DNA from: Arctopsyche grandis
Taxonomy: Eukaryota > Arthropoda > Insecta > Trichoptera > Hydropsychidae
DNA: 64,000 bases
NCBI RefSeq assembly: GCF_051622035.1
Contig: NC_135365.1
Span: 11,450,001-11,514,000, forward strand
Direction: 5' to 3'
This document shows positions 9,311 to 55,300 of this stretch, one piece after another (the first letter of the stretch is position 1; each line of letters opens with the position of its first letter). The notes below the pieces were generated by a model that made no database searches, was not told where the DNA came from, and worked only from the letters and a program-made list of their open reading frames with translations. The position numbers were made by a program, and so were the translations under genes.

Positions 9311-9320
9311 CATCAACATT

Positions 9321-20548: not shown

Positions 20549-20551
20549 TGC

Positions 20552-21170
20552 AATAAAATAATACCAAATTTAGTCGGAACCAAAATCGAATATGACCCAG
20601 GCTAATTTAAATTTGAACCGCCATGTGAATTGTCTGATCTCTTTCGTTTCTTCTTAAATCTTAAATCTAAAACGACGGTTAATTAAATCAAATAAAAATC
20701 ATTTTCCACCGTCGTTAAATAATGCACGTATATATTCTTTATAAACACTTATATCTATCATAATATTATAAAAATTCACACAGCATTTTAAAAATTAAAA
20801 AAAAATGTACCTAGTATGTAAATGCACTTTTATGCAACGGCCAGCAAGTTAAACCAAAGTTGTATTATTAATAAGTTTATATTATAAAATTTATATATAT
20901 ATATACATATATATATTATAAGTAATTGTAATTCGCGAACTCATGCGTGCCATATTTGTCTATATTACGTAAATCTTATAACCGTTTGTTGCAAAAGTAT
21001 GCTTTATTTGATCATTATTATTAATATAATTATTATATATACGATTAGCTGACTCTATTTTGTGATAATTTCCTAAAGTCTTATTTGGTCCCGTAATTTA
21101 TATTTTCTGCAATGTAATTTTGCACCCGGTTATGTGTTTGTGTTATTTTTGGGATCCTGAATACAATAAA
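20552..21170 (+). terminator. TG-1 3' UTR with alternative polyadenylation signals
   Basis: AATAAA occurs at 20552-20557, only a few bases after the stop, again at 20691-20696, and at 21165-21170. The last is followed by a non-coding AT-rich stretch. Several 3' UTR lengths are therefore possible. Confidence 0.55.
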
Positions 21171-25705: not shown

Positions 25706-26190
25706 ATACATCATCATCATTTACAGCCGCTCACCATCCACTGCTGGATGAAGGCCTCTCCAATATGCTTCCACTCTCCTCTGTTTTGTGCACCTCTCGT
25801 CCATCTCATACCACACATTTTCCTTATTTCGTCTACTCATCTTCCCAGTGGTCTTCTCTTTACCCTTTTGCATTCTCTTGGGTTCCATTCTAGTATTTAT
25901 TTTGTCCACCTTTTGTCCAATATTCTAGCCACGTGGCCCTCTAATTGCCATTACAATTTCTTCACTTTAAATAATAAATCCACTACTCTTGTCATACTTC
26001 TCAGTCACGTATTCCGTTTCCTATCTTTCCTCGTTATGCCAAGCATACAGCGTTCCATACTTCTTTGAGTGCATTGGACTTTGTGTAGCATCTTGGCATT
26101 CAATGGCCAAGTTTCAAATTCATACGTCATCATTGGCAAAATATATTGATCGAAGATCTTTTTCTTCAGGCATTGTCTTATTCATACTAT
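25706..26190 (-). mobile_element. RTE-type LINE 3' end
   Basis: Reading the minus strand, this is the same 3' end as at 51521-52080, with the (ATG)n tail at about 25706-25720. The translated phrases are broken by frameshifts, so it is an old, dead copy. The part beyond about 26190 is not recognisable as LINE. Confidence 0.75.
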
Positions 26191-27902
26191 ATATCGTGCA
26201 TAAAATATGATAAAGCGTCTCTTTGTCAGAAACGTTAGTAAACCTTAAAATAAGCAATTTGTTTCAACAAATCTGTTCGGTGAAGACCACGAGAAGATGA
26301 AAGCTACTCACTATCGTTCGCAGATCAAAAGTTTTATGTCGGCTACCAAAAGCCATGCTTAATGCATTTCCGGAAATGCGTACGTGCGTGCGCGCATTAA
26401 CACCCCCATTGACTTTTACTGTCGTTTGTGATATTTTGAGAAAACGATAAAAGTAAAACGTTATTTGCACACCAAGCTTAAGGCGAGGATACTGGAATTC
26501 CTGCTATAAATAAGTTCTGACCAATAAGTGTAAATATGAAGTATTTCAGAAATGTAATACTTTTTGTAAAATAACGAGTTTTTGATCAAACGAACGCTTT
26601 TTTCTTCAGAAAGTGAGTCATCTTTCATGATGTCATATTGGATTGGTATAGAAAAACGAATCCATCAGAAATTTAGTTTTAAAAAATATTGAAACCCCTG
26701 TCCAATTGGAGGGGGGTGGGGGCTCTAGGCTCCACCTGTGCCACCGTCTAATATATGCACGAGAGATTTTAAAAATAAGCATTATTTATAGGGAAGACTT
26801 CTAGCTATAAATTTGAATTAGCCACGTGCTAAATTGTGTCAAGAATCAATGAGCATCACTCGAAGCACGTCGATAATTGAGTGATCCGAATACTGACCAG
26901 GCATTTCTTGGCATTATATTTCGAACGAACCGAAAATAAACGTGATGCGTTCTATCACAATGAACAATAAATATGAATGACTGATTGAAGAAATTGGTGA
27001 ACGATATTTTTAAATTACACATACGCAGATGCAACAACAAGGTGTTGAAGTAATGGAAACTCACTTTGCTGATCATTCGAAGCACGCCCAACTCAAAATT
27101 AGCACACTTCAACTAATATTATGATAATTCCGTGTAATTGTATGCTCCTAATTTTGGCATGTACTCATAGCATGAAAAATCAATAAAATATGCATACTTG
27201 GAAACCGCAGTCTAGTCCAAGTTTCGTTTCATCAAATCGTCCTCATGGCACAGATCGGTACACTCTGATTCTATCCTCAAATCGGAAGACTAGTGCAGAA
27301 AACCGACTGGATATGATGACGACGACTCAACGTGTCTGTAGTATTCTGCGTGATTGCAGTTGTTGCACGCAGCTGGGTACATATTATAAATTTAACAATA
27401 ATTGCTTCATTAATACACTGTATGTACATATATTGAAGACAAGCATTCCATCTTTTCCTGTCCCATCTCAAAATTACATCAAATTTAACAATAAATTAGT
27501 CGTATACTTTATAAAATGTCTTGAATTGGGATGATTTTCAGGAGTAAATTTCATACCAATGAGATAATACATTCATCTTTATTTGTACCATGTCCCATTT
27601 CATTTCATTTGAGTTGACGATATACATATATACTATGTACATTTTTTGTTATAAGCCACTTGCATTTGTGAACTATTTGCTAGAGCATCTTAGTTGACCG
27701 GTAGAAATCATGCATTTTTTTCTTCCTATTGCCAAACCAATAGATGTGACAAATATGATTTTAGAAAAAAAAACAGGGATAGATATTATGTAGATGCACA
27801 TTACTTAAAACCCCAAGGTTGAAATTTCTCATGGAAACAATACTTTATCTTTTGATTTTTTATTTTATTTTTGAAAAGTATCCATCGACCACTGGTAATA
27901 AC
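26191..27902. other. Intergenic DNA
   Basis: No gene is recognised. The sequence CTCTAGGCTCCACC near 26720 and a CpG-rich patch near 26370-26400 (TGCGTACGTGCGTGCGCGC) are the only departures from AT-rich composition. Short open frames on either strand look random. Confidence 0.35.
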
Positions 27903-28055
27903 TAGTGACGGATCGGAAGCGTGCCGTTCATTGTTAATTTTTTGCGGTGCTTTGTTAAAGGTTCCCTGAACCTTTTTTTTTTTGCACTCTAGCTTTGTAA
28001 ATAGACACAAAATGCCCTGATTCCTGGAAAAAGCACGCTCCCTATCCGCCCTTTA
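27903..28055. mobile_element. hAT-type MITE, 153 bp (copy 2)
   Basis: This is the second member of the family at 3535-3685. The flanking 8-bp direct repeat GTAATAAC (27895-27902 and 28056-28063) is perfect. The ends are TAGTGACGGATCGGAAGCG and the complement of TAAAGGGCGGATAGGGAGCG. Shared interior phrases with copy 1 include GCTTTGTTAAAGGTTC, CTAGCTTTGTAAATAGA and GATTCCTGGAAAAAGCACGC. Confidence 0.85.
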
Positions 28056-29200
28056 GTAATAACTATACATAGAATACCCATTAGGACATTACCAAATAAC
28101 AAATAACAAGCAAAAAAACTTATAAAAAATGTTCTACGAAGTTACCAATAGAAAAAGAATTTTGCCCTGATGATTATCCATAGTCTAGTTACAACAAGAC
28201 TTCGGCGTTGGTCTGGTGCTCTTTAAATAACAACCACTCCACTAGTTAACAAAGTAAGAGTGCAAAAAAGCATCGTTGACAACTATTCTTTTCTTCTTCA
28301 TGTTATGTCGTAGATCTTTTTTACTTTATCCATGTACGTGATAACAATAAATGAGGCTTTGTGATCATGCGAAAATTCAAACTCGAGATTTTGACTGATT
28401 CGAACTCAGAATCGATCACTGATCACGTTTTCATGGTCTAGAAAAAATGTGTATGTGTCTGTGTATTTTGGGAACTTTTTGAACACCGTCATTCATATCG
28501 AACTGAAACTTAGTATCGGTTACTGAAATTTTTATCGATACGACTTATATTTTAAGGTGTATGTAGGTATCCTCTTGTTAAGTTTTTGAATTCAATTATC
28601 TCCCAAACCGCTAACCGAATCAAAATATTTTACCTCAACCGGAAGTAGTGCTTTTACTTTAGAGGGTCGAGGTTTTTTATATTTTTCTCGGAAACCTTAC
28701 TGCATATTGAACTGAAATTTCATATCTAGAAGTTTAAGCTTAATATCAAGTTATATATCAACCGGAAGTGGCAGTTTATTTGCTTTAATAGTCTTCTTCT
28801 TCAAGTGTCATGTCCTCCAAGAATATTAACAACTAGAATTTCCATCCGTATTTCCATCCAAATCTTGAAAAAACATACGAAGAATAACTATTATGTTACT
28901 AACTAACTAAAGAAAATACGAAGAATAACTATTATAGATATATTTTTTTCCAAAATTATCTATTAGAAATCGATGTATTATTTTATTTCCAAAATTATGT
29001 ATGTATTCAGTCTGTCTGGCGCTTGTCGATCGTTTGCACCAAACCCATTAGAAATACAAAACAAATCAAAAAGAAAGTTGTGTGCTCATACATATTGTAC
29101 AATTACGCACGACATTCATATGGAATAAAACAAGGACAACTCCCAATTCCAACGATTTAAGTATTTCCTCAAATTGACGGTTTTTCACAAAAATCCCGGA
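28056..29200. other. Intergenic DNA upstream of the TG-2 distal first exon
   Basis: No gene is seen. The part 28480-28790 (phrases ATTTCATATC.A.AAGTTTAAGCTTAATA and CAACCGGAAGTGG) recurs in part near 62555-62580, so it is a dispersed repeat. From about 29205 the composition becomes GC-richer, as expected for a promoter/5' UTR. Confidence 0.4.
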
Positions 29201-29502
29201 TAGGAAGTCCCCTCGTATCCGAGGTGCGTCATCGACGTGACCCACAACTGCTCACTCGTGACCCACACCACGGATCCCGATGGTGCTTGTATGGTTTTGA
29301 AAACGACAATCAACCAGTGGGTGGTGATGGATGGAGCAGTGGGGGAAAACACAACGCTACAAGACGTTGTGTTTTTGGGTTCGAGACGACAGTAGTGAAA
29401 GTGTTACCGGCTGGGTCGTACAGCATCTCGAACCGGTTATGCGAACATGTGTTTTGTTGTTTGACCGTGATCTAATATTGTTGTTATTGTTGACTTTATA
29501 CC

Positions 29503-29629
29503 ATGGGTAACAAGTTCAGCTGTTTTGGCAAGCAGAACTGCTCCTGTGGGTTCTTCAGGAGGGTCTGGAAACCTGAGCAGGATGCATCTCAAGGAGCTCT
29601 GCCCAAACCTCCCAACTGCACAGACACAG
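29503..29629 (+). CDS. Distal alternative first exon of TG-2 with a lipid-anchor N-terminus
   Basis: The ATG is in a good context (ACCATGG). The 127-nt coding part encodes 42 residues beginning MGNKFSCFGKQNCSC, then basic RR and a Pro-rich end, and stops in phase 1 at a GTACAT donor. Gly2 followed by small/polar residues and a cluster of Cys is the pattern for N-myristoylation plus palmitoylation, known in grasshopper annulin and in one Drosophila Tg isoform. The phase fits TG-2 exon 2 at 39970: the joined codon is GAT (Asp). The 5' flank 29205-29500 is GC-richer than the rest. The next downstream transglutaminase is TG-2, 10.3 kb away, so splicing there is inferred. This form would be 761 aa. 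Confidence 0.8.
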
Positions 29630-29924
29630 GTACATACATAAATGTAGCATTTGTTTGTTGATAACCTTTACACGTGCCTTTTATCGCGTTTTCACTGTTT
29701 TCAGTGTCTGAATAAGTGCATTTAAAATAATATGAAAGTCAAAACTTATTGATGAGATCATCAGTGCATCATTGAAAAGATTATGCGTTTTATTTATTAG
29801 TGTTATAATATAGTGGTTTTTAATGTCTTAGAAAAGGCTATTCTTAATTTACTCTCTCTTAGAAAGGTCTCAAATTTTAACCCTTTGTATCAAATGGGAA
29901 CTGAACCAATTAAATGGGTGCCCA

Positions 29925-30090
29925 AATATATTTCTGCTAAAAAGATCCAACCCACATGAGTTATATTTTGTTCGAAGTAACAGAAAAGTTAAAGACTTTT
30001 GTCTATTAGATTTTGTTTTTTATATTATAAAAAATGCTTTCAAAATATTATTCAAATGAGTTGGATCTTTTAGCAGAATTAAGTCCTTTA
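29925..30090. repeat. Inverted repeat, probable small MITE
   Basis: TTTCTGCTAAAAAGATCCAAC at the left has its near-complement GTTGGATCTTTTAGCAGAA at the right, about 110 bp apart. It lies in the presumed long first intron of the distal TG-2 transcript. No target duplication could be fixed. Confidence 0.5.
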
Positions 30091-31249
30091 GAAATTTATT
30101 CTAAGCTTCCGATTAACTAATATGAGTATATGAGAAGAGGTTTTGTTTGCACTGTGCTATGTAAATATGAAATATGTGTTTCTATATCTATGTGAATCTC
30201 TTTCTAATCGTTAAATGAATGTGGATACTTATTGTCTGTTTGTACAAGGCTTTAAATATTAATTATACGTTTAAAGTTCCGTCATTTTCGTACCATCTGG
30301 CAATATGATATCTAAATAGCTGTAATATTGTCGGAAAATATGACAAAAGTATACATGATACTATTTACCTGTCTGTCAAACAGTTGTTAAAATATTATGC
30401 TCTTACGTTTGAAATCATTAGGCATTGTCGTATTGAATTTCTTGTCTATTTTTTCATCAGTCATTTCCAATTATAACTGAATGAATGAATCTTGCTTTCG
30501 GTTATTTTTATCGATTTTTAATCCACGACTGATTTGTTTATCAGCGATTCAATTTGCATACGGATATGTCATTTTTGAATAAATCTTAAAATATATTTGT
30601 AATGATCATTCTGTATAATTCACTCGGTAGATTTCAAGTCTCGGTTGGAAATGGTAATGAATTGGTAATGGATAAAAGTAGGTAAGATAAAAATGTCAAT
30701 GGCACACACTTTTGCAATACTGACTCACGTTCCAATATAGAATCGTCGAATAAGATTATATTGAAAAGAACGTTCATTATATTGCAAATAAGTGAAAATA
30801 TAAAATACATATACATATGTATATATATATTGGTTTACTTACACTTAAATTGATACGACTCTTTTAATTACAACATTAAATAATGAAGTTATGATAAGCC
30901 CACGTACTGATTCTAGAAGACCGTGACTGTTGTCGATAGACCTTGGTGACATTTATACGATATTCATGATCAATTTGAACACATTTCGAATGCTAATCTC
31001 TCAACACCTATATTTATTTACAAAAATCATTGCAACTTCCTATACAAAAATACCCATTCGATTTTCAAGAAAAAAAATCATCTGTGGCGCACTGCATTTT
31101 TAAAATAAATTAAAAAATCATAAAATGCTCGTTTTAAGAAAAGAAACGTTAAAGGTCCGTTTATCTACGTATATTATCCAGCACTGCATGTCAACAACTC
31201 AGCACAACACAGCACAGAACTGCACGGAAAAGACTAGTTCCGTTCATAC

Positions 31250-31601
31250 TGTAACGTGGGAACATTATGGGGATTAGTTGCCGCCTAAAGTGCATTCTGG
31301 GGCTAACAATGGAGACCCCCAAGCCTAGAATTGGCCTAGCGGAACTGTAAGTGGTCGGTAGAATTCCTAGAACCCTGAGAGCGTGAGACTCACGTAAAAC
31401 TGTTCGTGCCTAGTCAATGGAGAAACATACGGATCGGGGAAGCTGTAGTGAGCGATTTTCCCTTTATAAGGAGAGACTTAGGCCATATCAGATCATTCTG
31501 GAACGAGCGCTAGCTGCGCGTGGACCTCCTGAATCATCTAATAAATGCTGTGAAGCGACTTTGGTCTTTCATTTGGATACCCAACCCACCCCTACGCAAC
31601 A
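31250..31601 (+). mobile_element. Solo LTR
   Basis: The 352-bp sequence begins TGTAACGTGGG and ends ACGCAACA. It is flanked by the 4-bp direct repeat ATAC (31246-31249 and 31602-31605). It contains a TATA-type TTTATAAGG (about 31463) and an AATAAATG polyadenylation-type signal. The distal half is related to 48190-48319. It lies in the long TG-2 intron. Confidence 0.75.
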
Positions 31602-32604
31602 ATACTATACAGCACCGCTCGTTTTCGCACGTTCATGCTTGTTTTGGACTAGTGCAAGGCAAAATTGGCTTACATATACCTGCACATGGCAATACTTACA
31701 CTAGTACGGGTGCGCTCGCCACTATGACGTCACTCCATGCGTGAATATTTCCATAGTGGCCAAAAAAAAACTGGTTCTATCTAATGGGTTTTGGTGACAT
31801 GTACTGCTGTATGATATGAACAGATCGATTGTTCGGATACGTCATATACACAACATGGAAAATATGAATGTGTATATACATATATAAATGTTTAATATTT
31901 TTCATACTGTTGTTTACGTGCAGTTGCTGGCTTGAGGTATGCTAGTATAAACGGTAAACAGACTATGGGCGAAGAATACACTGAGTGGTACGTGGCACGT
32001 GTTTTTTTTTAATATTTTTAAACGTGCGAAAAAAACGTAGCACTCCTAGCTCATATACATTGGTACACAATCGAAAAAATCACTTCCTGGAGTGTTTTCG
32101 GTGATATTTTATCCTTGCTCGATAATGGTGAATCCCATATTTGAAGAAATGTAGGAGAAACTTATGGATATGCATACTCGTGTGACCTCCCAAACATATG
32201 CATTCTGCACGTGTAACTACACCCGAATTTGGTTTGGGGAACAAAAACTGTTAACGGTCACAGCGGGAAGCCAAGGACACGTGACGTACCATACCACTCA
32301 GCGTGTTTTCGCCCTATTTCTCACATGGCACACTCGCCCAGCCGTCCGCGTATAAAAGAGCATGTATATGTATGTATGAATATGTCTTTGTCAGTGGTCG
32401 GGGCTTGATCTCCATGCATTCTTATGTACTATTGGTATATTCTGGTAAATGAATATTTTTCAATTTTATTTCCACCCCCGCTACTCGCCCAGCCGTCCGT
32501 GTACAAATGAGCATTTTTATGTACAATGTATATGAAAAAATATTTCTTCATTGGTTTCCCCCTTTTATAAGGACAGAATAGAAAGTAAATATTATTTACA
32601 TTTT

Positions 32605-32705
32605 TTTTGATTTTATTTTATTTCATAGAAAATGAACACTCGCCTTTACAGATCGTTCCAAGGTGATGAGTGCACTTAAACATATATAATACATGTTCTT
32701 GTCTG
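32605..32705 (-). mobile_element. SINE 3' tail fragment, type A
   Basis: Only the 3' tail is present: the CACTCGCC..CCAAGGTGATGAGTG hairpin and an adjacent TTTATTTTATTTCA stretch, matching the ends of the SINEs at 11702 and 23071. The tRNA head is missing, as expected of a 5'-truncated insertion. Confidence 0.6.
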
Positions 32706-32813
32706 AATTTGCGACGCAATCTCCTGCATTCTTATGGACTTCGATTAGATATAATATTTATTTTAAACAATCTCCTTACAAAAATGCAAAAAAATAAACA
32801 TTGATTATCCTGT

Positions 32814-32819
<6 letters not shown>

Positions 32820-32908
<89 letters not shown>
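32820..32908. repeat. (TA)n microsatellite
   Basis: About 44 uninterrupted AT/TA units. It is a likely site of length variation and assembly error. Confidence 0.95.
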
Positions 32909-32910
<2 letters not shown>

Positions 32911-33717
32911 CTTTTTATATTATTGACTTTTTAAAATACTTTGCACGAAACATTCTGATTACGCTCTGTATTATTATATGAATTCGTGTTCAAATTCGGC
33001 CCCGTAAAGTGTGCGTGTTCTGCTTTTGCTATACACAAAAGGTTAGACCATTTTTTTTGCCATTTTGATTGTTGAACCCATTACTTGAACTTTTCGTCTG
33101 GATGCTGGAACGCCGATAAACCGGTTACCAATCAGATGCTTCGTAGTGACAATCTGCGTTTCCCAATTAGTCTAAAACAAAACGTGATCTAATCATTATG
33201 CAGATGAATTATGTATTATAAGTAGGTGTATGTAGTTCAGAGCTGTTCAACTAAGCGTTATAAGACTAAAATATATTTCTGTTTGGTTTGCGAAACTTGT
33301 CAGTTTTATCGATTCGTTAAAATTTCACGTCGACGTGTGATTCTTTGTATGGAAACTTTTAATTCAAATAAACTTGGATACTATATTATTAGCACTGTGT
33401 AAAACACATCTGATCTTTTAATACAAAGAAAAAATTAGATGGTGCGTTTGTGTGGGTAACACTGCCTCGCAATCACTTTACTTTGACCTTCGTTTCTTCT
33501 TTAGATATTTTAGTTGTATCTCCAGCGAAACACACACATATTTCAAGTCCAAAATCAACAGAGAAACACATGTGCAGACGCTGGAATTCAAAAGTTAAAC
33601 CGGATAAAATAACGCACTCACGAAACATACCATCCGCAATATCAACATTTTCATACTACGCAATAGAATTCAAAATAGACTTTTAAAACCAATACGCCCC
33701 AGTTAATGCAACAGATT

Positions 33718-34345
33718 CATCATCATCATCACCATTTACATACAGCTATTTACCATCCACTGTTGGACTAAGGCCTCTCAAAACACATTTCCATTCATCT
33801 CTGTTTTGCGCAACTCTCATCCATCTTACCCCACACATTTTTCTAATTTCATCCACCTATCTCCCATGTGGCCTTCTTTTCACCCTTCTACATTCTCTCA
33901 GGTATAATTTTAGCAATGTTTTTGTCCAGCTTTCGTCCATTATTTTAGCTCATTGACATATCTATCTCCAGAGCCGCCGAGAGGAATTCCTGGGCCTACG
34001 ACAAACTAAAAAATAGATCTTATCGATATATTTTTGATCTATCAGAACTATTAGAAAAATACCTACATGTTGGTTGTTATTTTTAAAAATAATTTAATAA
34101 GAAATAATGATATCACAGGTACGATTTCACATAGACACAAAGGATGCGTGGATCATTAAATATAGAATAATATAAAATATAAATATCGCTCAGTCGAACT
34201 GGGCCCCTCGAGTAGTCCGGGTCCTGGAACTTTACCCCCCCGCCCTCTTGCCAGCACTGTCTATCTCTTCACTCTTTTCACTCTATCATATACCCTTGTC
34301 ATTTTTTTCACCCGGTTATTTCGTTTCCCATCTCTCATCGTATAT
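33718..34345 (-). mobile_element. RTE-type LINE 3' end, split by a hAT-type insertion
   Basis: 33718-33960 and 34268-34345 are consecutive parts of the RTE 3' region on the minus strand (compare 51521-51850), with the (ATG)n tail at 33718. The 291-bp insertion between them carries its own 8-bp target duplication. Many substitutions show the LINE is old. Confidence 0.72.
33969..34259. mobile_element. hAT-type MITE inserted in the RTE remnant
   Basis: The flanking 8-bp repeat TCTATCTC is perfect (33961-33968 and 34260-34267). The ends start CAGAGCCGCC and, in complement, CAGTGCTGGC, with CAG ends as in many hAT elements. The phrase CCTGGGCC occurs near the left end and GGGCCCCTCG near the right. 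Confidence 0.75.
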
Positions 34346-34357
34346 AAGTATGAAAGG

Positions 34358-34480
34358 CTGCATGCTTGGAAAACTGTGGATGTGATGGATGAGAGTTGCT
34401 CAAACAGAGACGAATGGAAGCGTGTTGGAGAGACCTTCATCCAGCAGTGGATGGCGAATGGCTGGGAATGGTGATGATCT
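34358..34480 (+). mobile_element. RTE-type LINE 3' terminal fragment
   Basis: A plus-strand fragment of the same LINE family (GTTGGAGAGACCTTCATCC, then AGCAGTGGATGGCGAATGG and a GGTGATGAT tail), close beside the minus-strand copy. The pair is therefore inverted, about 15 bp apart. Confidence 0.7.
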
Positions 34481-35833
34481 GTTGCACACGAATAAACTTT
34501 GACAGCCCTTAGCCCTGTTTGCTCTGGTGATTATAATCAATGTCTGAACAATGCTATATCTTCCATATCAACAAGATCATATTATTTTGATTATATGCAT
34601 TGGGTCTCATGAATTGCAGTCTTCAATTATTATCACTAAATTAAATTCGCCTCATATGTATGTATGTATGTTTGCACCGAACTCCACATATGAAGTAAAC
34701 AGACATATGTAATTACGTACCAATTTTCAACAACTAAAGTAGTTTATAGATAGCTCATATTAACAATGTCATATAAAATTAAATATAATTTGTCAAGGAC
34801 AAAATCCAAAACAAAAATATACGTAATATTTGTACTTAATTATGTAGTCTGTATTAGACTGTATTAGAACTTGAGTTTTCATAGTGTCCAAGATAGAACA
34901 TTTTTCGAAGGTGACACGTCGGCTGTGACTAAAGATCCGAGTTTTGTATAAAGATAAGACATATTTCAAACGCATTGCTGCATTGGAATTTGCATTGATT
35001 GAATATACAATGTACAGTAGATGCAATTGTGGAATACGAGTGTGTGATGACGATGATGGTCAACGCGTTTCTCAATCATCAAATTCCTCAGTGCGAGACG
35101 TTTTTCGTATCAATTTGATATACATATGTACATATTATAAGAACAAAAGTCGTCATATTTGCGGTTCGATCGCCGGATATGCGTGTTTAACGTTGCAACT
35201 CGTCTAATTGATCGTGCAAAACGATACCTTGATTCGCAATGTTTTTGAATAAAAATAAATGATACGAGCATTTATCGAACGTGTGTGCGCGTAATTGTTT
35301 GCGACTTCTGAAAATGAATTCCATGCTTGCTATGATGAGTCACGTACTGTGCCACTGAAATGTGTATTTGTGTTTGTATGTAAATTTATAATAGATAAAC
35401 AGAGAACTTTTTTTATCGGTAATCATATGGATGAAATTTTTTTTTCGATTGAAAAAATCAAAACAATAGTATGATTAATTGTGTTTTCTAGACAAGTAGT
35501 AAATTGTAATAAATATTTATGAAATATTTAATGATTTGCGATGGAGGCGTTGTGGTACATTGAATTTCAATTAAGTTGTATCGTAAACTGTTTATTACAA
35601 GGATTTATTAGTGATAATACTTTTTTAGCACCAATAGTGGTTGTTTTTTTGGCAAAATTAAAATTCAAATATGGTTATGAACATCCAGTGAATCCAAAAA
35701 AATGTGATTAAAAATGATACTTTTCTATACAAATTTATATGCGTGGTTTTTTTTTTAAATATCAGGCTTTTATTATTCACAGAAAGAAATGTGTTATAAT
35801 GCACTAAATACTTCAAACTTTATGGATTTTTTT

Positions 35834-36294
35834 AAGGTTATGGCTATTTGCAGGTACTATATCTGCGAATTGCTGGCTATTTGCAGGTACTATATCTGCG
35901 ACATGCGCAAAGCCTTCTGCGAAGAACTTATAATCCGATTATAATTTCTTACATTTAATGTATGCTAGACTTGTTTAATCAATCGTTCATTATACATGAG
36001 GCAAATAAATTTCGCACGTTATTATAATAGATTTATATCATTTAGCTAGTTCGCGGCTTGTACTTGTATGTAGGTATTTTACGTTGTATATGATAATTAT
36101 TTTCTAAAAATTAATAATATTAAATAATTTGGATTATATTTTTTACTCTACGTCACTTTACGAGTTCAAACTAAATTTTAAGAGGTTTCAAACAAAACTT
36201 TAACAGTAAACACGCTGACAGTGACAGTTCACGCGCATGCGCAGAAGGCTTTGCGCCTGTCGTAGATATAGTACCTGCAAATAGCCACAACCTT
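35834..36294. mobile_element. TIR element with a duplicated left terminus
   Basis: The left end AAGGTTATGGCTATTTGCAG and the complement of the right end AAGGTTGTGGCTATTTGCAG are long inverted repeats. They continue inward through GTACTATATCTGCGA and GCAAAGCCTTCTGCG. The first 27 bp of the left terminus (GGCTATTTGCAGG...CTGCGA) are repeated in tandem. There is no coding capacity. Confidence 0.7.
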
Positions 36295-36529
36295 TTTTTT
36301 AATACGTTGTAAGAGTATTGTACATATATGTAGATTTCTGTTGAAAATCATGACTTTCAAAGTTTCAACAAACCAGTCTGATCTTATTTTCGTTATTATT
36401 AAATTAAATATGTATTACATACTGACAGCTATGATTACTATGCAAAAACATTTTGTTAAATTTTAAAGATTTATTTTTGCAAATTAATATTCAAATCAAT
36501 TTCAATAAAATAAAACTATGCAAATAAAT

Positions 36530-36611
36530 TTAATAAATCGTTTACTATTAGATTGGCCATGTTTAAGCGGTTTAATATTACAAATACCGAGCGAAGCCGG
36601 ATAAACACTAG
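36530..36611 (+). mobile_element. Helitron-like 3' end
   Basis: The sequence TTTACTATTAGATTGGCCATG, then CCGAGCGAAGCCGG (imperfect hairpin), then ends CACTAG followed by T. Related ends lie at 59249-59330 (inverted) and 61605-61676, each ending CTAG, which is the Helitron 3' signature. No helicase is present and the 5' ends were not located. Confidence 0.5.
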
Positions 36612-37224
36612 TATAAAATAAAATAAATACCAGCTCATCCAATCAATATTACATACTTCCTACTCATTGATGACTTTGTTCATTGGCATTTATGTATTCC
36701 AATTTTGTATCTATCAGCTCCATATTCGCAAGTACATATGAGAGTAATGCACAATCGCCAATTGTAATATGTATTGCAATCTTCCTCTGGATCACTGCAC
36801 CATATATGCAGCCACAGTTGTATTCTACCAAATATGGACTAAACTATGTACATATGTGTAACAAAACGATTCATCTCACACAAGCTCGCCTTGTAAGCAC
36901 ACAAGTACTATTTACGAGCAACAGCGTTCAAATATTGAAGTCAGGATGAGAATATTCATATATTTGCACAGGAAATGAGCAAGTGTACACAATTTATTTC
37001 TGATACATAAAAATGGTCAGACTTGCTTATCATTTAGACGAGTCAATACAAGTTGACCATTTGTAAAAGAACCAACTGAATTATCCTTTCGTGAATCAAA
37101 TGTTGTGGCCTTCGACACGTCAAGTTTCCACAGTCCGTAGGCTGGTCTTGTTGTAGTGTGGGCTTCGATAGTCCACGGAAGAACTTCAGAATGAAAGACT
37201 ACGTTGGACGATCGATCCATTCAA

Positions 37225-37230
37225 TCAGTT
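37225..37230 (+). promoter_or_regulatory. Initiator-like site of the proximal TG-2 promoter
   Basis: TCAGTT followed by CTGCG closely resembles the TG-1 initiator (TCAGTTCTCGG). The predicted start (A at 37227) would give a 71-nt 5' UTR before the ATG at 37298. No TATA box is seen about 31 bp upstream. Confidence 0.4.
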
Positions 37231-37297
37231 CTGCGTCGGTTTCCAAACGATCAACTACTCTCTCGTTCTTAATTGGAACACATATATAATTATAATA

Positions 37298-40200
37298 ATG
37301 GACGTATTTTCGCGAATGTGGAACGATGTGCTAATTAGAGGAGGAAGACAACCGAGGCGAATTACTTATAGGCCGCGTAAGTTAGTCGATAATTACAATG
37401 TGAAGTGAATTTCATAAATGTTTTTGTGTATGAGAACTAGCAGGCAATATTGCAATGTTGATGCAACTATGCATTAGTTGTACATGATTTCTTATAAACA
37501 TGTACAATGTGCATGTTTATGAACGGAAATTATTTTAAAATACATATATTAGAAGTTAAAAAAAAATGTACATATCTATTCTGAAATGAATTCAACCGTG
37601 TCTTTGGAATTTTTAAAACAGTGAAGAAATTTAAAATAAAATATTAATTAAATAGTAATATAAAATATTTTATATAAGGCACTATACCTATATATTATTA
37701 TTAAATAGCTAGTGTTGTGCCCGATTAAATATCATTGCATGGGTTATGCTATTATTGCATATTATGGTATTAATTAATAAAAAAAAGGAAAATAAATGTC
37801 TCGGTCCTGTGTTCGTTCCGCACGTTTAAATATATTTAATTTATATGAAAAAAGACGGTAAAACTACCTACATATAAACAATATAAAACACAAATAGAAA
37901 AATTAATTAATTTAATAAATTTTCAATACTCAGTCAAGTCTCAGAGACTTATAGTTACAGAGCAAATAGTATATATAGAAGTTTTTTGTCGATCTTTTGT
38001 TATGTTCGTATTATTTTATTTTATTTTATTTGGAAAATTGACAGTTTATTAAATTATATAGATTGATAATAAAAACATAATTATTTTAAGCAAAACCATT
38101 AAGAATTTTCGCATATAGGTAAAAAATAAGAAAAATTTAAACATTTAAAATAAACATTATATTCGTACGTTTTGTTGGCAGTGTTTTTACACATGTCGAA
38201 TCTAGTATGGCGAGCGTTATCTCACACAGACTCACAGAATAGCGCTATTATATATATATGTATGTATGATGATATATAGAAGTAAAATTAAATTAACTTG
38301 TTAAAGAGATAAAAAAAAAGTTGAAAATAAATAAGTAAATAAATAAAGTGTTGATACAAATATGAATTCTTTAGCTTCCATTATAAAAAAGTCCCATGTT
38401 AATTGATAATATGTCAAGGTTTCCGGAACTGATTTTGGTGTATACATATATGTACATATGTATGTAGTGTAAAAAGCATACAAATTAAACTTTTTTTTTC
38501 AATGTCCTAAATATGTAGCTTATATTGAATTTTAAATTATGTCAAATGTTGGTTAGTCATAGCTATGTACAGTCAAATCGGGTCAATACCGATTGAGGAA
38601 AGATCAATTACATATTTTCAAGTAAATATATCGTGTACATTATGATTTGTATTCTTGGGAAAAACCACAAGTTCATTGAGGCTATCAAAAAATTCATATT
38701 GTCACCATTTTTCGTAAATTTCCTGTAAAAAAATTGTAATATCAAATCGGAATCATTCTACAGCGCATTTCTCGTTTATTGGCACTGTGAGAAAAATACG
38801 GTTTGGATTAACGACTTTTGCTCGAAGACTTCTTGTCTACATTTGGCTCCCGCAAGGACGCCATTCTTATTTGATTTTGTTTTTAAAAAGTTTCCAAAGT
38901 GCAGAGGAGGATTGCCTTATAGACGAAGTTGCAGAATTGGTGCCATTTTATACGTAAGAAGTTGCGTGGGCAGTTGGGTGCTATTAGATTTTTATGTTTA
39001 TTAGTAGTAGTGTATATCTATTGCACAAGTATACATTTCCTTTTATGTAGGTATGATTGGTTTTTTAATTCATAAATGCTGCGTGTCAGAAGTGTAGAAA
39101 GTCTTATTTTATAAAGGTTTTCAATATGAACAAAAATTGTCCATTTTTCGTGTTGATTTCTGTTAAGTATGGAAATACATAGTACAGAAGGATGTCTTCA
39201 ATGAAAATGCTGAATGTTTAGCATCTAATTACCATTCAAGAATTCTAGTATTCCACTAATGCGTACAATTGTCTAAGACTCGGTCGTAAAGAAGGCGTCA
39301 TTACATCATCTTGTCTGATTAAAAACACCTACATACAATGCAATTTTCACATTAATGGACGCTTTAGTATCAGCGTTTCCATCAAATTATATATTTCATA
39401 AATTAATTTGTGTAAGCACTAATAGTTGAGATATAAATGTACTTAGATTTTACTATTGCAAGATTGATTTTGATTTTTTTTAAATACTTTTTATTATTAC
39501 TAAATATATTTTAATAGCTACCGATCTACTGATAATTTTCTATTTTACAATTTTATTTTTGTTAGTTATCATAGTATTATATTATAGTATTATTGTTAAT
39601 TTACAGCATAATAGGAAAAAGAGCTCAAAAATCTATTTACAATTCTTATAAATACTCATAATACACCTTATACATAATATTAACTAAAGACTCTAAAGTC
39701 GACGATCTAAATCAGATTGTGTTCAGGTAATCTGTGTTTGTACCTGAAGGGTATAGATATTTTGTTGTAATCACCGATACTCTTCACAAGTGTGTTAGTA
39801 TGGTCATTAGTGATTCTGTGATAGAATCTATTGGTTAGTTTGTTAGTGATGTCTTTGACTAACGGAATATTATTAATATTGCAAGATAATGTTAGATATA
39901 AGTAGGCCTAAATAAATGATTCATAACAAAAAGCTTGGGAAAATATTAATGTCATGTCTTATTTTTCAGATGGAGTGGCTACATCATCGAAAGTCCTCAC
40001 AGTCCAATCAATAGATTATCGCATCACTGAAAATGGATTTACACATCATACACACAAATTTGAAGTCATGAAGAAAGAAAAAGATCCCAGTCTCGTGGTA
40101 AGAAGAGGTCAATCTTTCTTACTGGACATAACGTTCAATAGAGCATATGCACCTAGCAGTGATGCCATATCGTTTATATTCAACGTTGCTGGTAAGTTGC

Positions 40201-43200
40201 AGTAGTCTATTTTGAATATATACATAAATTATGTAGTGTATGGCTCACGCTTTAAATATTTCAGATGCTGAGAAACCTAATTATGGTCAGGGTACTCTGG
40301 TTGCGATACCGCTTCTAGATACTGTAGAAGATAATACGTCTGCATGGAGTGCTATAGTCGACAAGCAGTACGATAATCATTTAATTGTCAAAGTGATGAC
40401 CTCTCCTGAAAGCATTGTTGCGAAATGGAAGATTGATGTTGACACGAAATTGAAAGCCAATGGAGCTATCAGTTATTCACATCCAATTCCTTTCTATTTG
40501 TTATTCAATCCTTGGTGTCCTTTGGACAGTGTGTTCATTGAAGGTTAGTTTAATGGTTTTTTTTAATTAATTTTTAGTCATTATTTATTATTATGGTTGT
40601 TCAAGTGAAAAATTAGTAAACTTTATAAAACATATTACGGTTTATTACAGGTGAAGAACTTAGAGAAGAGTATGTCTTGTTAGATACTGGTCTTATTTGG
40701 AGAGGATCTTATAACCGACTGCGTCCGTCAATATGGAAGTATGCTCAGTACGAAAAAGATATTTTAGATTGCTCGTTGTATCTCATCTCTGAAATTGGAA
40801 AGGTATGTGAAATTCAGTTAAATATTTTAGTATTGTTAAAATTGGAAGTTTGATTATTTCATTGTTATCGCCAGGTAAAGGGTAATTCCAGAGGTGATCC
40901 TATTAGCATATCTCGAGCTATGTCTGCAGCTGTTAACTCACCGGATGATTATGGAGCAGTCATGGGTAATTGGACTGACGATTTTGGTGGCGGAACTCCC
41001 CCAACTAAATGGGTCGGCTCAATGGAAATATTGCAGACATACTTCAAAACTAAAAAACCTGTCAAATATGGACAATGTTGGGTATTCGCAGGAGTTTTAA
41101 CTACAAGTATGATACCTTATTATCAGAAGTTAATTACAATGAAATGTTTGTGGAATTAATAAGTTTTTAAATTATTTTAGTATGCCGAGCAGTTGGTTTG
41201 CCTTCTAGAGTTGTAACAACATATGCTTCAGCTCACGATACACAGAATAGTTTAACAGTTGATTATTTCGTTGATGAAAAGGGTGGTGTTATGGAAGAAC
41301 TCAACTCAGATTCAATTTGGAATTATCACGTATGGAATGAGGTAGTATTTTTGTGCTCAAAATAAAAGATGTTCAAAAATAACGCATGTTTTTTAAATTG
41401 GATATAATTTAATACAGGTTTGGATGCAACGACCTGATCTTGGCTCAGAATATGCTGGTTGGCAAGTTATTGACGCCACACCTCAAGAACTTTCTGATAA
41501 TGTTTTCCGTTGCGGTCCAGCATCGGTTGCTGCCATCAAACTCGGAGATGTGCAAAAGCCCTATGACAATGGATTTTTGTTCTCTGAAGTAAACGCAGAT
41601 AAAGTAAGTGTCAGCTCATCATATTTATCCAATTACATTTTTACTAAATTTAAAATAAGGTACCGTGTACAATTACCAGTGAATATTCTTCGTCAATAAT
41701 TTTTTCACTAAAATGCAAATAAGATATAAATAATGTTTAAGTATATTTTTAATTTTTAAATAGGTGTACTGGAGATACGCTGGACCTACACAGCCTTTGA
41801 AATTACTCCGCAAAGATGTTGTGTCTGTTGGAAAGGATATATCTACCAAAGCTGTGGGAAAATGGGAAAGAGAGGTAAGAATACATATGTCATTGATTAA
41901 ATTCTTAAAGGTATTTTCTTATTGACAAGGTTTAATTTATGTACTGTTTATGTTTTATAAAAGGACATAACAGAAAATTATAAATATCCTGAAAAGAGTT
42001 TGGAAGAGAGGGCTACCATGCTGAAAGCTCTTAGAATGTCAGAAAGTCTTTTTTCACGATATTATCTCAATGAAGATTTCAATGACGTTAGGTTTGATTT
42101 TGCATTACGGGACGATATTAAAATTGGACAGAATTTCAGTGTTGTAAGTATTATATACAATTTTTTTTTAAATTGATTAAGAATGTTTTTGGTTCTAAAA
42201 AATCAAACTAAACTGTATATTAACCTATGCTTCTCCTGTATGGAATAACGCCTCGAATACTAACCTTTCCAAGCTCCAAGTAATACAAAATAAATCCCTA
42301 AAAATAATTTATAATACACCCATATATACTAACTTGAAAAAACGGCATGCCATATATAGTATTCCGTTTGTTACAGACATTACTAACAAACTAACCAGTA
42401 GATTCTATGACAGAATCACTAATAACCATACTAACACACTTGTGAAGAGTCTCGGTGATTACAACAAAATGTCTATACCCTTCAGGTATAACACACAGAT
42501 TACCTAAACACAATCTGCTTTAGGTCATCGACTTTAGAGAGTCTTTAATTAATATTATGTATTAGACGTATTATGAGCATTTATAAGAATTGTAAATAGG
42601 TTTTTCAGCTCTTTTTCCTATTGCGCTGTACATATTAACATTATAATAATATAATACTATGATTACTAACAAAATTAATTTAAAATTGTAAAATAGAAAA
42701 TGATCAGTAGATCAGTAGCTATTAAAATAGATATAAGATGTATTGTGAACATAGTTTAGTAATAATAAAAAAAATTTAAAAAACAAAAAACTAAACTTCA
42801 CAAAATAGCTTTGTATGTTAATTAATAAATTTCTGAAGTATACATATGAATGATTTTTAAATTTTCAGGTGGTCATTGTCGAGAATCATTCGACAGACAA
42901 AGATCACACAGTTTCTGGAAATTTAAGAGTGGATACAGTTCTTTACACGGGAAAAGTTGCCGGAGCTGTCAAAAAAAGTGACTTTAATAAAGTCATTAAA
43001 CCAATGTCCAAAGAAGAAATAATGATGGAAGTTTCGTTCGACGAATATTATGGACGACTAGTGGACCAAGTATGTAAAAACATTTAATTAATTTTTTTTA
43101 TTTGATGAATCATTGTAACAATTCTTTTTTATAATAAATTTTTAGTGTGCTTTCAATATCGCTTGCTTAGCAACGGTGGTAGATACCGATTTTGAATATT

Positions 43201-43666
43201 TTGCCCAAGATGACTTTAGAGTTCGCAAACCTGATATAAAAATAGCAATTCATGGGAAACCAACAACCGGTCAAGAATTTGAAGCAACCATAAAGTTAGA
43301 AAATCCACTGCCGATTGCAATGAAGAAATGTGAATTCCGTATTGAGGGATGTGGATTGGAAAAACAACTGGTCATCAAATTGAAAGAAGTATATTTAATA
43401 CTTTATATATTAATAAAATTAAATACATAATCATTTTGATAATTTCATAAGTATATATTAAATTTAAATTTTAGAATGTTCCTCCCGGTGGATTTGCAAC
43501 AACAACCATCAAATTGGTACCACCATATTCAGGTCGTCATACGATAGCTGCTAAATTTGTATCTAAAGAGATGAATGACGTGGATGGTTTTCTCGCTTTT
43601 ATTGTCCAACCAAAGAGCTCCACAAATGGAAATTCAAGCTCTACTATTGAAAATACCGAAATATGA
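37298..43666 (+). CDS. Transglutaminase 2 (TG-2), annulin-like
   Basis: Twelve exons: 37298-37376, 39970-40191, 40265-40543, 40651-40802, 40875-41106, 41181-41341, 41418-41603, 41764-41874, 41964-42143, 42869-43069, 43146-43388 and 43475-43666; 745 aa. The beta-sandwich spans about residues 35-180. The core has the oxyanion Trp in GNWTDDF, Cys312 (YGQCWVF), His371 (NYHVWNE) and Asp394 (QVIDATPQ); two beta-barrels follow to a Ser/Thr-rich tail. The first exon encodes a short basic N-terminus ([12 protein letters not shown], then Arg-rich), replaced by a lipid-anchor exon if 29503-29629 is used. Intron 9 holds a Jockey-like fragment. An ATTAAA signal follows near 43698. Exon positions match TG-3 and TG-4. 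Confidence 0.92.
39475..39885 (-). mobile_element. Jockey-like LINE 3' end (copy 3) in TG-2 intron 1
   Basis: The minus strand reads the same ORF2 end and 3' UTR as 42236-42782 ([15 protein letters not shown]-like translation, then the AAAGTCGACGATCTAAA phrase in plus-strand reading). It ends 85 bp before TG-2 exon 2. Confidence 0.75.
42236..42782 (+). mobile_element. Jockey-like LINE 3' end (copy 2) in TG-2 intron 9
   Basis: The best preserved of four copies. It encodes about 75 residues of the reverse-transcriptase C-terminus ([20 protein letters not shown], then [20 protein letters not shown], ending PFRYNTQIT stop) and a 3' UTR of about 280 bp ending in A-rich sequence. Similar fragments in three transglutaminase introns or flanks may have helped unequal exchange. 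Confidence 0.8.
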
Positions 43667-44528: not shown

Positions 44529-47500
44529 ATGGCGACTTTTGCTAACAGAATTCTCAGCTTGATTGCTCCGAGAAGATCAACGAGAGCAGTCGGCTATACA
44601 CGTAAGAAATTTTCCTATTACAAATATAATGTTACATATATCAAGTAATATAATGATTATACTTGTTATAATTATGTAACCAGGACCTCAATCTTTATCA
44701 TCAAACATGCTTATCACCAAATCTATCGACTATCGTATATCGGAAAATGGACGTAACCATCATACATCCAAGTTCGATCTCATGTGCAGAAGTGATAACC
44801 CCTGTTTGGTGGTCAGAAGAGGTCAAGAATTTACCATAGATTTAATATTCAATAGGTCATTTCGAATGGACAAAGATGTCATTGACCTAGTTTTCAAGGC
44901 TGAAGGTTTTTATTTCATTTCTGTAGTCTAACTGATGTAACTGAAGATTTTTCGATTGAATATTGTTTAAATTTCAGAACTAATACCAAGTGGCAATCAT
45001 AATATAAATTTAAAGAAATTTGTGAAGGTTCAGTTTAATACTAACGATGATACATCGCAGTGGACTGCAGTCTTTGTGGGACAAGCTGATAATTGTGTCA
45101 GTCTTAAAGTGCGAAGTACTTCTAACAGCTATATTGGAAAGTGGATGATCGAAGTTCAGACGAGTTTGAAAAATGATGATGAAATGCCCAATGTTCATTA
45201 TATACCATTTTATCTATTGTTTAATCCATGGTGCGAGTTGGATGATGTGTATTTGGAAGGTGAGTCTGTATATTTTAATTACACGCGTATTATTAAACCA
45301 GTGTAAAAAGTGGCGAGGCTCGGGTTTTTGCCGCCCTAAATTTTCGCTCCAAAAATGATGATTTTCTATTATATGTATTGTATACTCTCAATTATTTGGG
45401 TGTATATAATATACGGTTTTGTGGATTATTCGTGAATGAACAAACTATATTATATTAAAATAAAACATGTTACAAACGAAAAGCTGTCGCCATAGATATA
45501 GAATACCATAGATACGCCCTGACGCTCTAAGCCGATCACCCTGTTGGAACATGCACACAAAAAAAAGTACAGATCATGCACACTCTCTCTCAGTAGCTAG
45601 TTAGCTTCTAAGTAGGAAGGTCGATTGACATTTTTCGAAAATGCCAACGTGTTCAGTGAAATTGTGTTACAATTACTCAAGAAAACATAAAAAGCTGGAT
45701 GGCATCACATATCATAAGTAAGAATTAATATATAATGTCTTCAATTATAGTAGTATTTTAACATATAATGAAATATCGGCGCGATGTATGTACTGATGGA
45801 ACAGCGGTCGACAACCTGGGTGTATCTTGTTGGCACTGAAGGAAATTCAGAAATCAACATTAAGTTTAAAACTACAAACAATGAACTAAATATTAAAGTG
45901 TCAGATTTAAAATTGATCCTTATGGAAGTTACTATTGTTTAAATATTGTAATAGTTAATGATGGTTTTATTATAGTAACATACATTTGTAGTTTAATATA
46001 GTGTGTATAGCTAAATATTTTTTTCTTGATATGGCTTTATTAATTTGGTTTACTGTCACGCGGAGTGTCTAATAAAATAAAGTTATAAATAAAATAAAAC
46101 TTCAGTGCATGTACATATATGTACATAAACTGGCTGCTGACCACTGCCGACCGCTGCGTCCTTCCTTTTTTTCACCACTTCCTCGCTAGTTAAACCCCCC
46201 GCACCCCTCAGTTAGTGGCAACAAGATCTCCAACGAAATTTGTATGTAATGGCATATCTAGGTTATTCTACATCTATGTTCGTAATTTTTTATACAATTT
46301 TATTTAAAATATCGACAGGCGATGAAAAACGAAACGAATACGTTTTGCGTGATACAGGCTGTATATACAGAGGAACAGAAGAAGAAATAGAAACAAAGGA
46401 TTGGAATTATTCTCAGTATCATGAGAATATTTTAGACTGTGCATTGTATCTCATTACACATGTTCAAAAGGTTAAACGATTCACATATAAAATGGTCACA
46501 TTTATTCTTTGTTTTTATTAATATTTTAATTGTTTTTAGGTTAAGACTCCGGATAGAAATAGTGCAGTTCACATAGCACGTGCATTCTCGTCTGCAATAA
46601 ATTCAAACGATAATAAAGGTGTACTTATTGGCTGCTGGGATGGCGAATATGAAAAAGGAACATCACCACTTATTTGGATGGGTTCGAGGGAAATTTTACA
46701 ACAGTATTACAAAAATCGCACTAGTGTGATGTATGGACAATGCTGGGTTTTTGCCGGAGTTTTAACCACAGGTATGAGACATTTCTATAGAACCACTAAA
46801 GCCAATTTCATGTGAGAATCACTATTGGAAAATTAGTAATCTTTGTCAATGTCTTGAACGTAATTAACTCTTTTGGTAATTTTTATTTATAATTAAATAA
46901 TCCAAGATTGATTTCAGTATTACGGGCTGTTGGGATACCGTGCAGACCTGTAACTAATTATGGATCAGCTCATGATACAAATGCTGACATGATAATCGAA
47001 ACTAACATTGATGAAAAGGACGAAAAGATAGGTGTTTCGGCCGATAAAATTTGGACTTATCATGTTTGGAATGAGGTTTGATTACATTGAGCCACAAAAC
47101 ATTACGTTTTTTACTTATTGTAGTGAAGACTAATTAATTTTAACCAAGCGAACATGACAATGGTTTTTGTTGGTTGTGTCTTGTTTGAGATATGAGTACC
47201 TGAAAAAAATGTGCAATTTTTACAGATTTATGGCTTTTACAGTTTTTAACTCAAAATCTGGTATTACTGTGACAAAACCGAGTATTGGAATCAATATTCA
47301 GATGTTTTTTCTATTGTGATTTTTTATTGCTTTAAAATATGTACTTATAATTAATTATTAAAAGTCAAAGATATTTTTTATACACTTTTTACCGTGCTAT
47401 TATGAATAAATTGGGCCAGTTTTATATATCATTAGTAGGGACACGTATTTTGGGCATTTTGCCATAAATGCTTAATAGATGCTAATAGATGGTAAATTCG

Positions 47501-52383: not shown

Positions 52384-55300
52384 ATGTCTGAAACTTTGAA
52401 CAGCTTTTGGCACAATGTCTTGCGCCGGAACAGAGTACATAGAAGATCCATCGAAAACACTCCACGTACGTAATGTTATTGATTATTATTTGTTACTTAA
52501 ATTAATTTACACACAACGAATAACTACATTGATAGGTGTTGAAAATGCTTTATCCGATGTTATGCAACCGCAACTTCTTACCGTCGAATCAGTCGATTAT
52601 TGCGTGGCAAAGAATGGATATGAACATCGAACGCAGAGGTATGATGTTATGTTAAGAAAAGAGAATACATGCTTGGTTATTAGAAGAAATCAAGAGTTCA
52701 CAATTGGCATAACATTCAACAGACCGTGTTCATTGGAATATGATGCGGTATCATTCATACTCACCGTCAAAGGTATTTGAAGTGTTTTGCTTTTATTGGG
52801 TTGGTAATGCTAAACTTTTTAACTTGTTTGTAAACTTTTAAAGGTGTTAAAGTACCTAGCCATGGTCAGGGTACTCTTGTTGCAATACCGTTATTGCGAA
52901 CTACAGACATCAATGCGACTACTTGGACTGCTTGTGTTGAAAAACAAAGAGAAAATCATATGATAGTCAAAGTGAAAAGTAATTCCACAAGTGTTGTTGG
53001 AAAGTGGAAGCTGCAAATTGATACAAAATTGAATATAGGTGGAAGTGCCACTTATTTACATCCAATGCCATTTTATCTCTTATTCAATCCGTGGTCAGAC
53101 TTTGATGACGTATACATTGAAGGTAATATTGTAATAACTTTTTTTTTAAAAAGCGAATTTATCAGTTAATAATGAAAGTAATTCTTGGAATAACATTGCA
53201 GAACACAGTTCTCGCCAAGAATATATTCTTGCAGATTCGGGTTTCATATGTGGCGGAGTGTATGATGCGATAGAAAAAATACCATGGCAATATTCTCAAT
53301 ATGAAAAGGACATTTTAGATTGCAGTCTATACCTCATTACTGAAGTTGGAAAGGTTATAGGATTTCCATTCATTCAAAATTGTGAATTAACATTTTATAT
53401 TTGAGATTTTGTAAAATTTGTCCAGCTTCGAGGCAAATTCAGAGGTGATCCGATACATACAGTTCGTGCGATATCTTCCGTTATTAATAACATAGTAATG
53501 GTGGGAAAATGGGATGGTATATATACTGGTGGAACTCCACCATATCAATGGATGAGCTCAATGGACATACTTCAAGCTTATTACAAAACCAAGAAGCCCA
53601 TTAAATATGGACAATGCTACGTGTTTGCCGCAGTTCAAACAACAAGTAATTATTATTATTAATGTGAATAATATGTTATGAATAAATATCGAAAATATTT
53701 TCATATAAATATATATATTATATGTATTTATGTAATTGATATAGCTTTTAATGTGAAATATCATCAGTTTGTAGAGCTATTGGAATACCTTGTCGGGCTG
53801 TAACTGTGTATGAATCAGCTCGAGATACAGGAGGAAGTCTAACTATAGATAATTATGTAAACATGTCAGGAGAAGCTGTAAAATTCGATGATATGGCAAA
53901 TTCAATTTGGAGTTTTCATGTGTGGAATGAGGTGATATTATTAAACGAAATATGTACATATGCATATATTTGATTTATAAATGCTTTTTATTAGTAAGAA
54001 ATTATGTTCACAATACATCTTATATCTATTTTAATAGCTACTGATCTACTGATCATTTTCTATTTTACAATTTAATTTAATTTGGTTAGTAATCATAGTA
54101 TTATATTATTCTAATGTTAATCTACACCTTAATAGGAAAAAGAGCTCAAAAACCTATTTACAATCCTTATAAATGCTCATAGTACATCTAATACATGATA
54201 TTAATTAAAGACTCACTAAAGTCGATGACCTAAAGCAGATTGTGTATAGGTAATCTGTGTTTATACCTGAAGGGTATAGACATCATATGCATATATGAAA
54301 TATAACAGTTGTTACAAGGCTTTTATATGTTTTTCAATATGCGAACAAGTCTAGTACTGTTTTTTTCTGTGAATTTGTAATGACAATAAATCTAGTTAAT
54401 GATTTAAAGGTTATATTCATACGTAAAATGTTTCATTAAATTTTGAGATATAATATATGTATGTTATTTTTGTACATTATTTTAGGTTTGGATGCAACGA
54501 CCAGATTTAGGTGCCAAGTATTCTGGATGGCAAGTCATTGACGCTTCTCCTCAAGAAGGCTTGAATGATACTAATCACCGATGTGGTCCAGCATCTGTGA
54601 TTGCAGTAAAACGAGGCGAGGTTCAAAAGTGCCATGATAACTTGACAGTGTACTCGGAGATCAACGCAGAAAAAGTATTTCTATTTTTTAATAATTAGCA
54701 ATTGTTAAGTTATTTAAGGTTTTTGAAATTCATTGAGATTTATTTGAATTCAGCTAAATTGGAAATATTCTGGAGTTAAAATACCTATGAAATTGCTGAA
54801 CGTGGAGTATACTAATATTGGAATAAAGATGGCAACGAAAACTCCAGACCGATGGTTGTTTGATGTGAAGTATTTATATTTACTGATTTCAAAAATAGTC
54901 GTGCATGAGTAATAATTTCTGATGTTGAACTTTATGAATTGTAGGATATAACTGAAAACTATAAGCTATTTAGAAGACCTGCTGAAGTTAGATCAAATCT
55001 AATAAAAGCTATCTGTACTGCAAAAAGTGGATTTGTTCGGTATAAACTGAATGAAGAATGTCAAAATCTTAAATTTGAGTTTCTACCAAGGGATGAATTT
55101 AAATTTGGAAAAAGTTTTAGTGTAGTGAGTTTAATTATTTAGAACTTGAACACTATTCTTCAGATCTAAGAATCCACATTTCCAAATTACTATTCAATTA
55201 CAATTCAATATAAATATGTCCAAATCTAGGTACTTTTTGTTCTAAATCAGTCAGTAACAGCAGACTACATGGTAGTTGGAAATTTAAAAGTTGATACATG

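Follow-up and report, generated by a model that had tools for sequence, protein, structure and literature searches.

In the present study, we examined a 64-kb stretch of the Arctopsyche grandis genome (C11:11450001-11514000, called the window below), in which the transglutaminase gene TG-2 lies; the genome-wide searches covered the 476 Mb assembly. Judging from its sequence features, TG-2 very probably has two alternative first coding exons, of which the upstream one (exon 1a) is predicted to give a lipid-anchored enzyme and the downstream one (exon 1b) a soluble enzyme.

Two probable first exons before one enzyme

The model of TG-2 was built by hand from GT/AG sites and reading frames. It consists of 11 common exons (39970-43666), which are preceded by either exon 1a or exon 1b and can be read without a stop in both cases. 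Exon 1a, the first coding exon of the TG-2A form (29503..29629, + strand), has 127 nt, that is 42 codons and 1 nt, and the donor CAG/GTACAT. Exon 1b, the first coding exon of the TG-2B form (37298..37376, + strand), has 79 nt, that is 26 codons and 1 nt, and the donor CGC/GTAAGT, and the distance from the ATG of exon 1a to that of exon 1b is 7.8 kb. Both exons are in phase 1 at their GT donors and both are in frame with exon 2 (39970..40191, + strand), where the Transglut_N domain starts and whose phase-1 acceptor, TTATTTTTCAG followed by AT at 39970, is compatible with either of them. A sequence-only reading of this DNA had given the same exon coordinates, frames, phases and splice dinucleotides, and in these it was right. 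We infer the junctions 29629-39970 and 37376-39970, which would form the codon GAT (Asp) via exon 1a and CAT (His) via exon 1b and yield model proteins of 761 aa (TG-2A) and 745 aa (TG-2B).

The other common exons, also on the + strand, were placed by the gene model, Pfam and the factor XIII alignment as exons 3-7 (40265-40543, 40651-40802, 40875-41106, 41181-41341 and 41418-41603) and exons 8-12 (41764-41874, 41964-42143, 42869-43069, 43146-43388 and 43475-43666). They (40265..43666) carry the remaining N domain, the catalytic core and the C-terminal domains, with the stop codon at 43664-43666. The predicted TG-2 protein is a complete transglutaminase, catalytic triad included. The domains Transglut_N, Transglut_core and Transglut_C stand in order in TG-2A, all above the Pfam cut-off, and the segments of the Cys-His-Asp triad (YGQC, NYHVWNE and IDATPQE) align with those of factor XIII A. 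Among the 19 solved sequences matched by TG-2, human factor XIII A scored highest (438 bits), followed by TG2 (426 bits). The alignment with factor XIII A begins at residue 53 of TG-2A, hence both exon-1 peptides would precede the enzyme fold, and the exchange of first exons would alter the N-terminal tail alone.

The predicted lipid-anchor start in exon 1a

The peptide of exon 1a is MGNKFSCFGKQNCSCGFFRRVWKPEQDASQGALPKPPNCTDT; it begins with MGNKFSCFGKQNCSC and has Gly2, Ser6, Cys7, Cys13, Cys15 and Cys39, as well as FFRR at residues 17-20. The segment MGNKFSC fits the PROSITE-type N-myristoylation pattern, which we coded from recall. Two near in-frame stops lie 5' of the ATG and the last 79 nt before it are without AG, which makes this ATG the likely start. 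The GC content is 0.53 in the exon and falls to 0.31 in the neighbouring 131 nt of intron. Among the best candidates scored, the peptide searched against its own genome at E<=1 gave the self-match alone, and in a DNA search with 29203-29700 the second site matched the part before the exon alone, so that no second copy of exon 1a was found.

For the motif test, we combined the N-myristoylation pattern with three or more Cys within residues 3-18, an open frame of at least 20 codons and a phase-1 GT; the test was designed after exon 1a had been seen. The full motif with three Cys occurred in 1 of 500 Markov-1 shuffles of 20601-39960 (+ strand), a rate of 0.002 per shuffle. The N-myristoylation motif together with a phase-1 GT was present in three open reading frames (ORFs) of the 64 kb, both strands taken together, and in three further ORFs from nine other 10 kb loci. 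Among these six ORFs exon 1a alone has three Cys, and the other five have none or one. The claim of an acylation-type N-terminus in exon 1a was thus borne out by the Gly2/Ser6 pattern, by Cys7, Cys13 and Cys15 and by the shuffles. A chance origin of the open frame would agree with the unremarkable codon-usage score of exon 1a, but the rarity of the combined motif in the shuffled 19.4 kb stretch, and the fact that the exon has the correct strand and phase and lies upstream of the right type of gene, make this extremely improbable.

Exon 1a has no CpG, where 8.8 are expected. Of the 127-nt windows in which at least 7.5 CpG are expected, 4180 in all, 52 are free of CpG and all of these start at 29485-29540; the exon is the sole GC-rich place (by the same limit of expected CpG) in the 64-kb window without CpG. 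In addition, it has an excess of TpG (11 against 7.2 expected) and CpA (14 against 8.6). Elsewhere in TG-2, exons 2-12 together have 62 CpG against 81.1 expected and exon 1b has 7 against 3.9. One explanation for the lack of CpG is the decay of methylated CpG in an exon transcribed in the germline, or else codon choice; possibly this one TG-2 start alone is methylated in the germline.

The region upstream of exon 1a (29047..29431, + strand), a possible promoter or 5'UTR, ends 71 nt before the ATG. We found that 29006-29431 matches C11:11524653-11525078 over 426 nt with 3 mismatches (99.3% identical). That second site lies 45.6 kb downstream in a composite of a hAT-like miniature inverted-repeat transposable element (MITE) at C11:11524321-11525203, which is flanked by AGTTACTT (C11:11524313-11525211 with the flanks) and carries a copy of 29047-29431. 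The MITE is a high-copy element, about 373 bp long and with inverted repeats of 47 bp, and it matched 38 other places among the best 40 of 1978 first-look candidates. When ten of its loci were read, both ends were exact in seven; six of them had exact 8-bp target duplications, and the seventh is the composite. Upstream of exon 1a, a probable remnant of such an element (28970-29046, or 28962..29054 with flanks; strand not assigned) stands between two copies of ATTAGAAA (28962-28969 and 29047-29054), of which the first is followed by TCGATG, like the end of the MITE. The paired ATTAGAAA and the TCGATG suggest insertion of a MITE at this place, with 29047-29431 as native sequence and the downstream copy as the derived one. 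This reading is limited by the five occurrences of ATTAGAAA in the window and by an intervening sequence that is MITE-like at its ends alone. The idea that 29006-29431 is a recent insertion into the promoter of exon 1a was dropped, since the ATTAGAAA pair suggests native sequence at 29047-29431.

Exon 1b, the tandem copies and the weighing of alternatives

The peptide of exon 1b has a net charge of +4, no Cys and no Gly2 myristoylation pattern. The sequence-only reading had called it basic and amphipathic-looking; the basic character was confirmed, but the amphipathic one found little support, as its strongest segment contains Gly-Gly and Pro. The neighbouring genes TG-3 and TG-4 likewise have a short basic first coding exon in phase 1 just 5' of exon 2, placed like exon 1b. 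That of TG-3 (44529..44601, + strand; MATFANRILSLIAPRRSTRAVGYT) is separated by an 82-nt intron from exon 2 at 44684, and that of TG-4 (52384..52465, + strand) by a 70-nt intron from exon 2 at 52536. The basic start of TG-3 and TG-4 suggests that exon 1b is the ordinary start of this gene group. Kinship of the first exons was examined by global alignment of six pairs with 20,000 shuffles per pair. Exon 1b against the TG-4 exon gave a shuffle p of 0.0015, and exon 1a gave 0.49 against exon 1b, 0.77 against the TG-3 exon and 0.18 against the TG-4 exon. At the sequence level, kinship of exon 1b is thus supported for the TG-4 exon alone, and its tie to the TG-3 exon is by position, phase and charge. 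The exon 1b peptide searched alone gave its self-match and did not recover the TG-4 exon. The motif scan of the 64-kb window found no second lipid-type first exon; as far as seen, the predicted lipid exon is confined to one copy of the tandem array.

Several results weigh against two working first exons in TG-2. By the codon-usage log-odds, which were trained on the TG-2/3/4 models, exon 1a does not stand out as coding: its score is equalled or exceeded by 4 of 50 open non-coding stretches that start with ATG, and another frame of the exon scores 0.175 against 0.012 for its own. The donors of exon 1a and exon 1b each beat only 2 of the 30 internal donors of the TG-2/3/4 models. No stop pins down the ATG of exon 1b, as the frame stays open over about 40 codons 5' of it. 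The shuffle p was 0.56 for exon 1b with the TG-3 exon and 0.998 for the TG-3 with the TG-4 exon, with no signal of kinship. Finally, a single scan with exon 2, made on viral contigs, gave no relative. Nor does codon usage set exon 1b apart (610 of 7289 open stretches of 26 codons score at least as high).

The weak donor and the indistinct codon usage of exon 1a would also fit a history in which this species makes TG-2B alone and exon 1a, left over from an ancestral lipid-anchored first exon, is decaying or out of use. The probable MITE remnant about 450 nt upstream, and the window motif scan, which found no such exon for TG-3 or TG-4, point in the same direction. We consider this history unlikely, because the start, frame, motif and phase-1 GT of exon 1a are all intact and the exon is still GC-rich with zero CpG, unlike the adjoining intron.

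Exon 1a might also belong to another transcript, made from a small gene that went unrecognised or by read-through, or be shared with TG-3 or TG-4. Since in the models exon 2 of all three tandem genes has a phase-1 acceptor, joins beyond TG-2, to TG-3 or TG-4, are conceivable. We saw by eye no other convincing gene in the 53 stop-to-stop ORFs (62 aa or longer) that overlap 20600-39960, a set that includes the ORFs of exon 1b and TG-2 exon 2. Two of the 53, located immediately 5' of exon 1a, were scanned with Pfam and gave nothing above the cut-off. On this balance, assignment to another transcript is decidedly unlikely. Very improbable, too, is a bolder form of sharing, in which exon 1a would be a single upstream 'address exon' spliced to TG-2, TG-3 or TG-4, its CpG-free sequence marking a methylated constitutive start.

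With two alternative first exons of TG-2 as the preferred reading, the surroundings of the gene can be described as follows. Pfam Transglut_N had ten exon matches genome-wide, which were grouped as four genes of the window (TG-1 to TG-4) and two on C9. TG-1 (window about 17083-20560) is of a second transglutaminase type with a Met/Gly/Ser-rich N-terminal extension, and the two C9 genes (C9:29756429 and C9:32949061) resemble it by eye. TG-3 (window 44529-50728, + strand) starts 862 nt after the end of TG-2, and TG-4 (window 52384-56068, + strand) is the third tandem paralogue. Both have the catalytic residues and the triad segments in their models, with Tyr for Trp after the Cys in TG-4; these models were scripted from similarity to TG-2, and their borders are less certain, chiefly those of TG-3 exons 8 and 9, which had the lowest scores. 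Identity is 48% between TG-2 and TG-4, 43% between TG-2 and TG-3 and 37% between TG-3 and TG-4. The best score against the solved enzymes was 438 for TG-2, 330 for TG-3 and 299 for TG-4, by which TG-2 looks like the slowly evolving copy.

The open frame around the modelled exon 9 of TG-3 has a Gln/Ala/Ser-rich repeat (AQES...) just before that exon. The strongest Transglut_core match of the genome (C13:15352479-15352655) lies outside the six transglutaminase genes and has no adjoining Transglut_N match. ORFs at window about 9279-9959 resemble by eye Tim21, a subunit of mitochondrial import. Words were counted in six contig ends. The doubled TTAGG repeat numbered 99, 596 and 598 in the arrays at the two ends of C9 and the start of C2, and 6-23 at the start of C1 and the two ends of C11. 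Telomeres of the TTAGG type are a usual feature of insects and other arthropods, in agreement with an insect host.

Proposed mechanism and known systems

The last 69 nt before the exon 1b ATG are without AG, and the AGs at -71, -102 and -110 give an out-of-frame ATG. Two promoters are therefore likelier than one. The sole in-frame AG within 120 nt upstream (-118) has a poor polypyrimidine tract, as read by hand. Exon 1b as an internal exon after exon 1a was rejected, the nearest AGs being out of frame and that at -118 a poor acceptor. Initiator-like TCAKTY sites within 700 nt lie at -73 and -268 before the exon 1b ATG and at -496 before that of exon 1a; as sites of this kind often arise by chance, they were given no weight.

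We propose that two promoters about 7.8 kb apart would drive the TG-2A (upstream) and TG-2B (downstream) transcripts. In TG-2A, Met1 would be removed and Gly2 then acylated by N-myristoyltransferase, after which at least one of Cys7, Cys13 and Cys15 may be S-palmitoylated. The acyl groups together with FFRR would hold TG-2A on the plasma membrane or an endosomal membrane, from which it may be released on vesicles without a signal peptide. TG-2B would be a soluble form of this enzyme, its tail short, basic and free of acyl groups. The acylation and the sorting of TG-2A to membranes and vesicles are proposed from the motif and by analogy with Drosophila. The sequence-only reading had supposed one enzyme with two destinations. 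Alternative first exons with a dual-acylation pattern in one of them remain the best reading of the sequence and match Drosophila TG-A/TG-B, but for the exon 1b form the data favour no particular destination, beyond its not being lipid-anchored.

Compared by layout, TG-2 resembles the Drosophila melanogaster transglutaminase (CG7356), in which one gene has two alternative N-termini (TG-A and TG-B) before the same enzyme. According to Shibata (2017), the two Drosophila splice forms reportedly have N-terminal tails of 46 and 38 residues, the A form being acylated and secreted and the B form cytosolic; one form is said to carry myristate and palmitate and to be released on vesicles, and the other not. 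The features of this type seen in TG-2 are a first exon with the Gly2 pattern and near Cys, and a second first exon of the same phase without the pattern. The annulin of Schistocerca is an insect transglutaminase bound to the membrane; its N-terminus has an acylation pattern, and it lacks a signal peptide. The anchor of human transglutaminase 1 (TGM1) is not known to be exchanged by such a choice of first exon, and the top-scoring solved chains for TG-2 are factor XIII A and TG2. For TGM1, a review (PMC11854935) reports palmitoylation and names Cys47, 48, 50 and 51 of the N-terminal tail, with the remark that the papers behind these residues gave no data on them. The same review states that Drosophila transglutaminase A was experimentally palmitoylated and that palmitoylation of transglutaminase B was not detected, and another review (PMC7023112) describes hemocyte transglutaminase reaching recycling endosomes and release on exosomes. 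Among the papers listed by literature searches on insect transglutaminases, none could be tied to the present gene; an earlier report on it may exist.

A difference from Drosophila CG7356 is that TG-2 is the first of three tandem paralogues. In Anopheles gambiae, there is a cluster of three transglutaminases (AGAP009098-AGAP009100), of which one is specialised for the male accessory gland and mating plug, according to PMC2785878. The present TG-2/3/4 likewise form a cluster of three. Hence, the two-start layout and the clustering of insect transglutaminases are both already known, and what this locus adds is a lipid exon in one copy of a tandem array, as far as seen. If true, the first-exon switch between a lipid-anchored and a soluble enzyme is not peculiar to Drosophila and occurs in an insect with tandem copies, and one may then ask if duplication freed the other copies from the membrane or secretion role.

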